64,000 nucleotides of DNA from Pascua guehoae (lineage: Eukaryota; Basidiomycota; Tremellomycetes; Trichosporonales; Trichosporonaceae), in the NCBI GenBank assembly GCA_001600415.1, contig BCJX01000003.1, positions 1,800,059-1,864,058 on the forward strand, given 5' to 3'. The notes under the pieces were generated by a model. The model saw nothing but the letters and a program-made list of their open reading frames with translations. It made no database searches and had not been told where the DNA came from. The position numbers were made by a program, and so were the translations under genes. This document shows positions 21,147-25,914 of this stretch, one piece after another. Position 1 is the stretch's first letter, and each line of letters opens with the position of its first letter.

Positions 21147-21686
21147 CTAGAGCTTCGCTCCGTTCTTGACGTTCGGGCCGGTTCGACCAGCTCGCCAAGC
21201 CATCAGGTGCGTACCGGACGCGATCTTCTTCCCGGTGTCCCACTCGGTAATGTGGCAGTGGGCGTTTGCGAGCGTGCCCGACATGCGGTCGACGGTGACG
21301 ACGATGCGGACTTTGGTCCCCATTGGTGCGGGGTTGAAGTAGGTGAGGTCAATGGCGAGGCTGACACCGCCGGACATGGGTGGTCCCCACCATGTCGGGG
21401 TCTGGAGTTGCTCGGTCGCCAGTCCAGTGAGGTTGTCGACAATCCACCCCACGCACGCACCGTGGATCGAGCCGTATCCGTTACACCATTTGGGCCCCAC
21501 AATGCCCTCGTACACGGTCGTCCACCCCTCGACGTTGTCTCGGCCGCCCTTGGCGTTGATCGGTGGGATGGGGTCGATGGTGTACGGCGTGATCGTCTCG
21601 CCGATGCCGCACGTCGAACCGAAGCCTTCCCAGCTGTTGACGGTGCGCTGGAACTCGTCCTTGTCCTTTTGCGTCGCGTACACCAT
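21147..21686 (-). CDS. Hotdog-fold acyl-CoA thioesterase-like protein (PaaI/4HBT superfamily)
   Basis: A single exon encodes 179 residues from ATG at 21686 to TAG at 21147. The central motif GSIHGACVGWIVDNLTGLA (His75-Gly76..Asp84) matches the HGG...D/E signature of hotdog thioesterases of the THEM4/ACOT13/PaaI group, where the Asp or Glu on the long helix is catalytic. It is followed by an AIDLTYFNPAPMGTKVRIVV strand typical of the fold. These enzymes hydrolyse acyl-CoA thioesters. No targeting peptide is evident, so the location is uncertain. The length fits the family. The gene is divergent from the zinc-cluster regulator (start codons 425 bp apart), which leaves room for a shared promoter. 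Confidence 0.8.
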   Translation of the reverse strand: MVYATQKDKDEFQRTVNSWEGFGSTCGIGETITPYTIDPIPPINAKGGRDNVEGWTTVYEGIVGPKWCNGYGSIHGACVGWIVDNLTGLATEQLQTPTWWGPPMSGGVSLAIDLTYFNPAPMGTKVRIVVTVDRMSGTLANAHCHITEWDTGKKIASGTHLMAWRAGRTGPNVKNGAKL

Positions 21687-22111
21687 GGTGTTGTTGTCAA
21701 TAGCAGCTCGGCGTCGTTCACCTGGCCGCTACTTATTACAGAGCTGCCAAAGAACCCTCGGGGTCCCCACCTGGCCCCGGCCACGGCTAGCCGGCGCCGC
21801 CGGAACTCACCGACGGAAATCACCGACAAAATAAAGGTGGGGATGAATTAAATACCTCCATGTGGTATTACGTAGCTCGGAGTAGGCTGTCCCTGAAACT
21901 TAATGCGTCCCCCCAGTAAAAGTTTAACAATCGCCACCCCTCACCATCACAAACACGTTGCTCGCTATCCCGCATCGCAACAAACACCCCCACCCATCCC
22001 ACTCCTGAGCCTACAGCGACACCCACCGACGGCAGAGCCGGCCCCCTCGCATTTTGCGCTTTCGAACGATACCACATTCGCCATATCTCGTCGTCATCGG
22101 ACTTTAGGCCC
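21687..22111. promoter_or_regulatory. Divergent promoter region between thioesterase and zinc-cluster gene
   Basis: These 425 bp separate the start codons of two oppositely transcribed genes and must hold both promoters and 5' leaders. No specific element can be assigned with confidence. Confidence 0.45.
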
Positions 22112-25100
22112 ATGAGCGACAACGCCGGTTCTGGCGATCCGATCCAGGGCCAGGTCCAGCAGGACCACCCCAACAACCCACCACCACCAGACCCCATCAC
22201 CACCCTCCATGAAGCCACCGATCCCACCGATGCTCTTGCGGACACCATTCCAGAGGACGACGATGCAGCTGCCGATGCCGCACTCACTGCCGCGCTCGCC
22301 TCGGCTGCTGCTGCCGTTCCTGATGCAAGTCCGGATCCCGGCGCGGTGATTGCGGATGACGTCCCTGTCGGCGATGATCTGAGGGCCGCCATCGAGGGAG
22401 CCACCAGTGCGCCCGACGATGCCCCTGACATGATCGATGATGCAGATGAGGCAGCACTCACTGCTGCGCTTGACGCGGCCGCGGCTATCATGCCCCACGC
22501 GAGCCCCGATAACGCCGAGGACACCACAGCCGGCCATAGTGGCGAGGACGTAACAGACGGGCCGACAGACGCGTCTGACGTTTCCCCTAATATGGACGAC
22601 ACTGCAGCCGAAGCCGAAGCAACTGCTGTTGAACCCACAGAAGCAACAGAAGCAGCAGCAGCAGAAGCAGCAGCAGCAGAAGCGGCAGCAGCAGAAGCAG
22701 CAGCAGTAGAAGCAGCAGAAAACGATGCAGCTGCTATCATCGCTGCCGCCACCAAAGCAATCATCGACGACACGGATGGAGCCGCAGCTGAAGCCACCGC
22801 CGACGATACAGTTGCGACCGCTGTTGAATCCGCCGCAGACGACACAGCTGCAGACGGTGAAGCGGCTGCCGCTGCCGATGCGGTCGCTTCTCTGGAAGAA
22901 GCGGCTGTTGCTGCTTCTGGTCTCGACGACGTGGACATGGACTCGGGCTTGTCTGGCCTTGCTGAGGCACTGGGCAACCTTCCTTCCGAGGAAGAGATGA
23001 ACCAGCTTCACGACCTGGACGATGGCCCTCCCCAGTTTGACCCCGACACACTGGCCAACCTGGCGGCCTTGAGTCGCATCACGGCCGACGAAGAGGAGAC
23101 CGACGCCGCCAACCTCGCCTCCCTTGGTCGTATGCACGACGACCATGACGCGCATGCCAACGCTATGCACCTGGACCATGGAATGGTCGACGATCACGAC
23201 TACTCGAGTCTTATTATCCCACCTCCGCCAACACTCACGCGTGACCAGGTGCAGGAGCTGGTCGACAATCTGCGAGCCGTGCGCGATGAGGAAGATGAAG
23301 GCGAGCTTGACACGTCGGCAAACGAGCAAGACGAATTGGAGGAGGCGCTCACAGATGCCCACACCCCGGCACAGTACACCGACTCTGTGGATGACGGAAG
23401 CCAGCGCGGAGACGGAGACTATGAGGGACCAAAGATGTTCCAGACGGGAAAGAAGAAGCGGAAGAGGAATAGGACGGTTTTGTGAGTGGCGAGCAGGTGG
23501 CTTGCATGTGCGTGGAGCTGACGGGTTTCTAGGAGCTGTACCGAATGTCATCGCAGGGTGAGTTTCTTACACATACTGAAGGGCGTTCACTGACAACATC
23601 GCAGAAGCGTGAGTGTACTATTGGAGACGGCAGAGAAGGTTGCTTACCACCAACGTTCCCTTTACAGAACATGTGAGTTGCCGTTTACTCCAACGAAGTG
23701 TGAAGCTAACCCACCCAGTGTGATCGTAACATTCCGTGCAGTCGATGGTGAGTAGCGACGCTGTCAATGCCGCTGACAGCCTAGTATCAAACGTGGTGTG
23801 CCGAGCATGTGCCGTATGGAAACGCCTACCGTCCCACAACGAAAACGCAAAAAGTAGGCATTGTCCGTACTGCCTTTACTGACTGCTTAGGATGACCGAT
23901 GACAGCCCTATCAACCGAGAACTGGGCCTTCGGGTCAAGGCGCTAAAATCACTCATCCGTTCGGGTTCCAACTTGGACGATGCCCAAGCAGACGATGCGG
24001 CGAGAGAAACGATTCTCCAAGCTCAACGAGCCGCAAATAGTGGCCAGCCCGAGGCCGTCAACGCCTTGGCCCAGCTCTCGCAGAATGCCCTGGGCATTCC
24101 CGAAATGAGCCAGGACGCCCAGAGTAGCCTGCTTCTCGACGTGCTGCAGCAGCTCTCGGCTGCCAGCATGGGGCGCCCGTCGCCATACACCAATGGCAAT
24201 GACCAAGCGAGCATGCTCGAGCTGCGGGAGACGTGGTCGTCAGTGGCTGCAGCACAGCAGGATAGGTGAGTTACATCGTGTCTGGGCTGGAACTGACAGT
24301 ACAGCGCTGTTCAGATCGCTACCGCATTTGCAGCTGACGTAGAGGAGTCAAAGATCAATGTCGCGCTGGCGGGTGTGCGCGACGACAATGGCAAGATTTT
24401 CCTGCCACCGACTGTGCGATACGCCGAGAAGAAGCTGAGGGAAGAGTCCCTGCTGGCACACGAGACCTTGCCAGTCGAGGGATTTGCCTCGTTCCTCGAG
24501 TCGGGTACCCGCTTTGCGTACGGCGAGGATAGCGCGTCATTCAAGAACAAACGCATCGCCGCCATCCAGACAATGTCGATCACCGGTGGCCTGCATATGG
24601 CGTCCACCTTCCTCTCGCGCTTCCCCGTCACTGCCACCCAACGATCAGTCTTCATGCCCATCCCAACGAGTGCAGAGGACACTGCCGCACTCCGCGATGG
24701 TGGCCTCGACGTCAAGCATTATCGCTTCCTTGACCAGAAGAGCGGAGGAGTCGACTGGGACGGCATGCGTGAGGACCTGCAAATGGCTGCCCCCCAGTCT
24801 GTGGTCCTCCTGCACATTAGCGGGTCTGTGCCAACGGGCGCCGAGCTCGCGGCGCACCAATGGCGTCTTCTTACCACTCTCTTGCAAGAACGGCATCTCA
24901 TTCCTTTGATCGTCATGGCGTTCCAGGGGCTGTCCAGCGGTGACCCCAATCGTGATGCTCAACCGCTGCGATTTATGGTTCACGAGGGTCTTCCCGTGGT
25001 GCTCGTCCAGGGCTTTGATGCTGTGGGTCCGGAATCTCCTTGAAAGAGCAGAGCTGACCCTACAGATGATGGGCCTATACGCCGATAGTCCATCTATCCT

Positions 25101-25914
25101 CTCGGTCGCGACGCAAAGCTCGGATGACCGTGATCGTATCGATTCGCAGCTGCGCAGCATTGCACGGTCAATGTACTATCACCCGCCTGCTTGGGGTGCT
25201 CATCTTGCACACACTGTCCTGTCTGATTCGAAGCTGTTCCCGGCATGGTGGGTTTCGTTTTCACCGGCAGCTCTAACCCAGCAGGCTTGCAGAGATCCGC
25301 GCTATTTCCGACCGTCTGCGCACGGTTCGAGAAAAGCTCTTCGACTTGCTCGCAAACAAGCTCAAGACACCCGGTTCTTGGACGCACATCAAACGAGCTG
25401 CTGGGATGTACTGGTATGTTAAGCCTTTCGTCCGGATCTGACAGGCAGCACGCTCCTTCTGCCCACTTCCCAAATCAACGACCTCACCACCAAGCGACAT
25501 ATCCACCTGCTGCCGGAAGGCTGCATTTCGCTCGGCTGTCTAAACGTTGCCAAGATTGACGCACTCGCGCGCGCCGTCGACTATGTGGTGCGCGAGGGCA
25601 TCCGCGAGGCCGAGGAACAGGCCGCCCAGCAGCTGGCCATGGAGCTTGCTTTCCAGGCCGCCAAGGAGCAGCAGGAACGCGAAGAGGCCGAGGCACAGGC
25701 CGCCGCAGTGGCAGCCGCCGCGGCCGCTGCACAGGCAGAGGACACGCTCCTCATGGAGGAGTCGATCGCGAGCGCACTCGAGGCCCAGCGCGCCGCCGAG
25801 GAGGAGGAGCGGCGCCAGAACGACGAGCAGCGCCTCCTCGAGGAGCAAGTGCGCAAGGCGGCCGAGCGCGCAGAGATTGCTCGGCAGGCAGAGCTTATTC
25901 TGGCTACTATTTGA
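22112..25914 (+). CDS. Zn(II)2Cys6 finger fused to an aspartate-aminotransferase-like (inactivated) domain
   Basis: Eleven exons: 22112-23481, 23533-23557, 23605-23608, 23668-23672, 23719-23747, 23785-23853, 23891-24265, 24305-25022, 25066-25247, 25285-25413 and 25449-25914. They total 3372 nt, one frame of 1123 residues. Residues 1-450 are acidic and Ala-rich. Residues 459-487 form a full zinc cluster, C-X2-C-X6-C-X5-C-X2-C-X8-C (Cys459, 462, 469, 475, 478, 487), followed by RKRKK and a probable coiled coil (NRELGLRVKALKSLI). Residues of about 626-1020 align with aspartate aminotransferase: RDDNGKIFLPPTVRYAEKKL, the MGLY segment, RSMYYHPPAWGAHL and the AGMY region. Key residues are changed. 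The PLP-lysine position is Ala865, the HNPTG Asn is Val801, the Asp pairing with PLP N1 is Val829, and the substrate Arg of GRIS is Cys994. A charged Ala/Glu coiled coil ends the protein. It is probably a nuclear regulator, not an enzyme. The alternative is two genes split at the 23854-23890 intron, the second starting at ATG 23892. Confidence 0.75.
22639..22720 (+). repeat. GCA/GAA trinucleotide repeat inside the coding region
   Basis: Repeated GAAGCAGCAGCA blocks encode an Ala/Glu-rich run in the N-terminal part of the zinc-cluster protein. Such tracts vary in length between strains. Confidence 0.75.

Follow-up and report, generated by a model that had tools for sequence, protein, structure and literature searches.

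The gene at positions 22,112 to 25,914 of the window (the whole 64,000-nucleotide stretch of Pascua guehoae DNA that was analysed) is predicted to encode a protein in which an acidic N-terminal region and a Zn2Cys6 finger are joined to an aspartate aminotransferase (AAT) domain that has lost its catalytic residues. On balance, we read this protein as a single-chain regulator of Tremellomycetes in which the dead AAT domain would serve as a folded, non-catalytic regulatory platform. A core metabolic enzyme has apparently become part of a eukaryotic transcription factor and has been kept dead in three fungal orders, and the question of transcription regulation by an aminotransferase fold without PLP is thereby made testable.

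Gene Model and Domain Organization

Table 1. Features of the predicted regulator gene, by position in the window.
Feature	Positions	Strand	Basis or remark
Whole gene	22112..25914	+	11 exons, 1123 aa + stop; model rebuilt base by base
Exon 1, acidic Ala/Asp/Glu-rich N-terminal region	22112..23481	+	composition
Conserved short motif DPDTLANLAALSRI, residues 310-323	23039..23080	+	within otherwise divergent N-terminal region
Conserved short motif LTRDQVQELVDNL, residues 375-387	23234..23272	+	pattern match
Basic stretch KKKRKRNR, NLS-like (putative function)	23450..23473	+	directly N-terminal of finger
Zn2Cys6 finger CX2CX6CX5CX2CX8C, residues 459-487	23537..23812	+	split across exons 2-6
Microexon, exon 3, 4 nt	23605..23608	+	required for CX6C spacing
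Microexon, exon 4, 5 nt	23668..23672	+	rebuilt model; relative models
37-nt intron	23854..23890	+	GT..AG; CTGAC 12 nt from 3' splice site
Exon 7 (residues 501-626), helical linker	23891..24265	+	four predicted helices, AlphaFold2
AAT-like domain, exons 8-11, residues about 626-1020 (approximate end)	24305..25602	+	Pfam, PDB matches
GFDAMMGLY, lost Schiff-base lysine site (Lys258 to Ala)	25011..25080	+	split by intron 25023-25065
C-terminal charged long helix / coiled coil	25609..25911	+	prediction in relative P0015

The base-by-base rebuild bore out the preliminary description of a single 1123-residue frame made up of 11 exons with GT..AG introns. The coding length is 3372 nt including the stop codon, and all ten introns are short (35–59 nt each) with GT..AG borders. 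In nine of these, CTRAC (CTGAC or CTAAC) lies 11–15 nt from the 3' splice site, and the tenth has CTTAC instead, 25 nt before it; in a control, CTRAC was present anywhere in 3.4% of exonic segments matched in length to the introns. The predicted start fits the relatives, as MSD also forms the first residues in 19 of 38 relative models, and the C-terminal residues ...ARQAELILATI match those of the relatives P0015 and P0007. The Kwoniella pini relative, P0001, has 66% identity to the window protein over residues 440–1030.

The in-frame TAG at 23,855–23,857, the very small size of some exons, the predicted nature of the exon model and the 24 of 38 relative models in which no finger can be read could all suggest that two adjacent genes had been wrongly fused by the exon model. 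We consider this highly improbable, however, as the TAG is predicted to be spliced out with the intron at 23,854–23,890, which joins the finger to the linker and has both splice and branch-site signals. In addition, a single chain carries both the complete finger and the AAT domain in six relative models (predicted, not transcripts), and more predicted models link the finger end to the linker, their sequence running uninterrupted from the finger end into the following residues. A gene-model artefact was rejected on the joining-intron signals and the one-chain relative models, and the fusion of the two domains in one chain is, judged from sequence, real.

A thioesterase-like ORF (21,147–21,728, minus strand) is the divergent neighbour of the gene, with Pfam matches to FlK (E 2e-5) and 4HBT (E 0.0016) that are just below the cut-offs. 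If this ORF starts at its first Met, it would share about 0.4 kb of upstream sequence with the regulator gene.

The N-terminal region has a net charge of -102 across 440 residues and is probably disordered; it is also the probable activation region. It aligns poorly with its counterparts in five relatives (27–36% identity in the aligned part) and, when searched alone, had no Pfam family at E<=1. Its two short motifs are conserved: besides the window protein, 23 of the 58 fetched proteins have the LxxLAALS core of the first, and 18 have the pattern of the second. A CAG-type tandem repeat at 22,638–22,718 (period 15, 5.4 copies) encodes an AEAAA-rich stretch of this region and is possibly variable in length.

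The proposal that a complete Zn2Cys6 finger is joined to a fold-type-I AAT-like domain was supported by an HMM search of the joined protein, which found Zn_clus (PF00172) at residues 458–491 (E 5.2e-7, 30.1 bits against a cut-off of 21) and Aminotran_1_2 (PF00155) at residues 649–1010 (E 4.5e-32), both above their cut-offs. Zn2Cys6 fingers are defined by the six-cysteine motif CX2CX6CX5-12CX2CX6-8C, with which the window finger agrees. The fungal-specific transcription factor middle domain, which is common but not required in such regulators, had no Pfam match at E<=0.1 in the window protein.

Between the finger and the AAT domain, the AlphaFold2 model of the linker had pLDDT values of about 71–86 per block over the helices (whole-piece mean 68.8), and a Foldseek comparison of this model with the PDB gave nothing at E<=0.001. 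At the other end of the AAT domain, the C-terminal region is predicted to be a single helix in P0015 (residues 503–623, with falling pLDDT). Identity to the five relatives compared was 71–91% in the finger, 48–69% in the AAT domain and 56–82% in the C-terminal helix. In the divergent members P0029 and P0054, a long Pro-rich tail replaces the charged C-terminal helix.

Distribution of the Fusion

Relatives were collected in three protein searches, each of which scored only about 8000 candidates, and within that scope members were found in Tremellomycetes. The search with window residues 440–1030 identified 29 proteins, among them ones from Kwoniella, Cryptococcus, Vanrija, Cutaneotrichosporon, Naematelia, Saitozyma, Cryptotrichosporon and a Tremellales isolate. 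A profile search identified 37 proteins at E<=1e-10 and added Dioszegia, Kockovaella and Papiliotrema, among others, plus canonical aminotransferases, and a search with the divergent P0029 identified 13 proteins and added Filobasidium and Naganishia. Kwoniella belongs to the Tremellales, Vanrija and Cutaneotrichosporon to the Trichosporonales, and Filobasidium and Naganishia to the Filobasidiales. Restriction of the gene to one species was rejected based on the matches in these searches; the DNA of the gene had no match among plasmids.

The total of 58 proteins included 38 members with a near-complete AAT domain (with gaps in P0028 and P0057). The other 20 were seven partial members, six canonical aminotransferases (P0042 and P0047–P0051, of which P0042, P0047–P0049 and P0051 were inspected) and seven proteins outside the inspected set (P0041, P0043–P0046, P0052 and P0053). 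The domain pair was found in relatives as well, where six of the 38 members (P0001, P0005, P0025, P0026, P0028 and P0058) combine, within one chain, an AAT domain and a complete finger of the same pattern as in the window; finger and aminotransferase are therefore not always separate in orthologues. Both Pfam domains were listed already in databases for five of the matches to residues 440–1030 and for one match of the P0029 search.

Exons 3 and 4 encode KQH, which precedes the third finger cysteine, and public annotations may often miss the finger because it is split by these two microexons. Eight of the 38 relative models, judged from the protein models alone, miss just the KQH residues (one of these, P0009, is also broken upstream), and in 24 others the finger is broken, truncated or absent, some models being late-starting. 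The finger end, KRGxPxMC, is kept in 23 of the 58 proteins. P0024 (Cryptococcus neoformans) and P0055 (Filobasidium) start just past the finger position, as truncated models would; from the start of P0024, it would follow that such regulators may be missing from transcription factor catalogues built by domain scans. We read most of the 24 models as annotation faults, but the finger, which was not found in the protein models of Naganishia P0056 and P0057 or of P0029 and P0054, may be truly absent from those four. The Filobasidiales models showed the dead AAT domain, but none of them a finger. Among predicted proteins, the fusion in one chain occurs in Tremellales, and in Trichosporonales it would be represented by the window together with near-complete fingers in Vanrija and Cutaneotrichosporon.

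Loss of the Catalytic Residues

The AAT domain matched mitochondrial aspartate aminotransferase (5ax8) with an E of 7e-72 over residues 18–401 of 407, and the best 60 of 81 PDB matches were all aminotransferases by name, with no MocR regulator among them. Membership of the AAT family is indicated by sequence for the window protein, and the fold by prediction for the relative P0015 only. Pocket positions are given in AAT numbering, with residue roles as in the enzyme (Lys258, Asn194, Asp222, Arg386 and others). Alignment showed that all four replacements initially described, Lys258 to Ala, Asn194 to Val, Asp222 to Val and Arg386 to Cys, were right, and identified Tyr70 to Thr, Gly108 to Ile, Trp140 to Ser, Tyr225 to Phe and Arg266 to Ser as further substitutions.

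The same losses extend across the family in an alignment of 39 members (the window and 38 relatives) and seven canonical rows. The Lys258 position is Ala in 29 members, Ser in six and Thr in four (one of these three residues is likewise present in each of the seven partial members), and Asp222, Trp140, Arg266 and Arg386 are absent in all 39, with Cys, Ser or His at the Arg386 position. Gly108 is replaced in 39 of 39, by Leu, Ile, Val, Thr or His; Asn194 and Tyr70 are kept in none of the 38 members with a letter there, Asn297 in none of 39 and Ser296 in four of 39. All seven canonical rows have Lys258, Asn194, Asp222, Arg266 and Arg386. P0029 and P0054 have Ser at Lys258 and His at the Arg386 position. 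Based on the catalytic residues being gone in the window and its relatives, the earlier view that catalysis and Schiff-base formation are lost appears correct, and lysine-linked PLP binding by the window AAT domain is, by its residues, impossible. An active aminotransferase to which a finger has been added would agree with the full length of the AAT domain but is virtually excluded by the lack of the Schiff-base lysine in all 39 members.

Other parts of the pocket persist or have acquired new identities. Arg292 is retained in 39 of 39 members, and Ser107 and Thr109 of the phosphate loop in 37 of 39 each. Newly near-fixed are an acidic residue at 143 (39/39) and at 257 (37/39), Ser or Asn at 266 (39/39), His at 297 (35/39) and, also, position 265. 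The 24 pocket positions had a mean entropy of 1.03, compared to 1.07 for the domain, which was not below chance draws (0.395), and we counted this test as neutral between a scaffold and a remodelled pocket.

In MocR regulators, PLP is bound through the AAT lysine. A MocR/GabR-like sensor that instead binds PLP non-covalently and reports on B6 or amino-acid status would share the same type of architecture, a DNA-binding domain with an AAT fold, and could make use of the persisting Ser107 and Thr109. We regard such a sensor as very unlikely, since Lys258, Asp222, Trp140 and Arg266 are lost in every member, and with Gly108 replaced and Arg266 and Tyr70 lost the phosphate site is damaged.

Origin of the Aminotransferase Domain

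A quick tree, built from 36 rows (seven aminotransferases and 29 members, ten Kwoniella rows being left out), placed the members on a single branch with an SH-aLRT of 100 and a stem of 1.53 changes per column. Nearest to them were the two AATs of the same genome, included as stitched fragments, and P0042, and then the fungal P0047 (forks 91–92). The window row clustered with P0015, Cutaneotrichosporon and Vanrija (96), and the tree program flagged P0048 and P0058 as long branches. A single descent of the domain from an AAT is supported by this tree as its probable origin. As every examined member is without the lysine, parsimony suggests that catalysis and lysine-linked PLP were lost before the sampled members diverged. 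A horizontal gift of a MocR gene is unlikely, given the fungal finger and the best 60 of 81 PDB matches, which are aminotransferases, although the tree of members and aminotransferases had no MocR row.

The genome search identified one copy of the fusion gene and, on C2 and C7, two AATs whose fragments retain catalytic motifs. It is conceivable that the dead domain pairs with the cell's catalytic AAT, coupling AAT abundance or state to transcription. Arg292 acts across the AAT dimer interface, as do Tyr70, Asn297 and Ser296, which also reach across, and the two AATs and the invariant Arg292 would fit such a pairing. We nevertheless find it improbable, as Tyr70 and Asn297 are lost and Ser296 mostly so, and as AATs, being metabolic enzymes, would be expected outside the nucleus.

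Proposed Mode of Action

We propose that the Zn2Cys6 finger would bind DNA, as its family does, while the acidic N-terminal region with its two conserved short motifs would recruit the transcription machinery. The linker, the AAT fold and the long C-terminal helix would hold two chains together and offer surfaces to partner proteins; AAT enzymes are homodimers. The AAT domain would have descended once from an AAT, lost PLP chemistry early and then been kept folded and non-catalytic. Of the sensor, dimerisation scaffold and partner-binding module that were suggested initially, we lean towards the scaffold. The 24 of 38 relative models without a readable finger count against such a platform, as do the new near-fixed pocket residues, which could mean that a changed binding site has been kept.

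Those residues, at 143, 257, 265, 266 and 297, together with Arg292, raise the possibility that the dead pocket has been remodelled for a small molecule instead of lysine-linked PLP (Arg292 could, for example, hold a dicarboxylate or an amino acid), and that binding of this molecule alters the dimer and DNA binding. Arg386 is the alpha-carboxylate anchor of AAT, and its replacement in all members argues against this sensor, as does the set of 24 pocket positions being no more conserved than the domain. A fungal precedent exists in QutR, GaaX and TanX, which are hypothesised to be catalytically inactive yet inducer-binding (PMC10512348). We hold the sensor to be a tentative alternative, and favour the non-catalytic platform over it. 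Equally tentative is the broader proposal that a Tremellomycete zinc-cluster family captured an AAT once, stripped it of PLP chemistry and made it an allosteric module that responds to a metabolite; eukaryotes would then have invented the MocR-type design independently, with a new chemistry not based on PLP.

Comparison with Known Systems

No description of a Zn2Cys6 and AAT architecture was found in the literature as covered by titles and the starts of abstracts, with subscription papers mostly outside this scope. A fungal transcription factor survey (PMC5415576) and two Cryptococcus transcription factor studies (PMC4391232, PMC13252557) have 0 occurrences of "aminotransferase" in their main texts, and the passages with matching words in Fusarium, Emmonsia and Magnaporthe papers treat other matters. 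The Cryptococcus neoformans list has 78 transcription factors with Zn2-Cys6, of which 40 also have the fungal-specific domain (PMC4391232). The window protein shares the finger family PF00172 with ordinary Zn2Cys6 regulators but, unlike those with the fungal-specific middle domain, has a helical linker and an AAT fold after the finger.

LCB1/SPTLC1 is a fold-type-I PLP enzyme subunit that has lost its lysine, is kept as a partner or scaffold and is not known to be fused to a DNA-binding domain. The window protein is similar in having a dead PLP fold but differs in the fused DNA-binding domain.

The fungal AROM-like repressors QutR, GaaX and TanX, putatively inactive as enzymes, are tied to Zn2Cys6 activators (PMC10512348). 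Like them, the window protein would be a fungal regulator related to a metabolic enzyme and linked to Zn2Cys6; in their case, however, the finger and the inactive enzyme are on separate proteins and the enzyme is AROM, whereas the window gene encodes one chain with an AAT. The AROM C-terminal domains had no Pfam match at E<=0.1 in the window protein, which matched only Zn_clus, Aminotran_1_2 and, below threshold, a PV-1 coiled-coil family. For the Zn2Cys6 activator QutA itself, an origin from AROM domains has reportedly been proposed. With fungi using enzyme-like, putatively inactive repressors beside Zn2Cys6 activators, the principle has a precedent, as separate proteins.

The preliminary description had called the protein a fungal counterpart of MocR/GabR, and this held for the joining of a DNA-binding domain to an AAT fold; homology to MocR and a PLP mechanism received no support. 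According to published accounts, MocR regulators have a DNA-binding domain fused N-terminally to an aspartate aminotransferase fold (PMC6917764, PMC4944035), and the characterised ones bind PLP (PMC5320631). Two of the three defining MocR/GabR features that we tested, the GntR winged helix (no Pfam match at E<=0.1 in the window protein) and lysine-bound PLP, were not found, and homology to MocR also received no support from the best 60 of 81 PDB matches or from a tree that lacked a MocR row. As in MocR, GabR and PdxR, one chain is predicted to carry a DNA-binding domain N-terminal to an AAT fold. The type of finger and the kingdom are different, and the window protein has lost the lysine and much of its cofactor site. 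The likeness is in plan only, and by that plan the Tremellomycetes protein is a natural counterpart of the bacterial MocR regulators.
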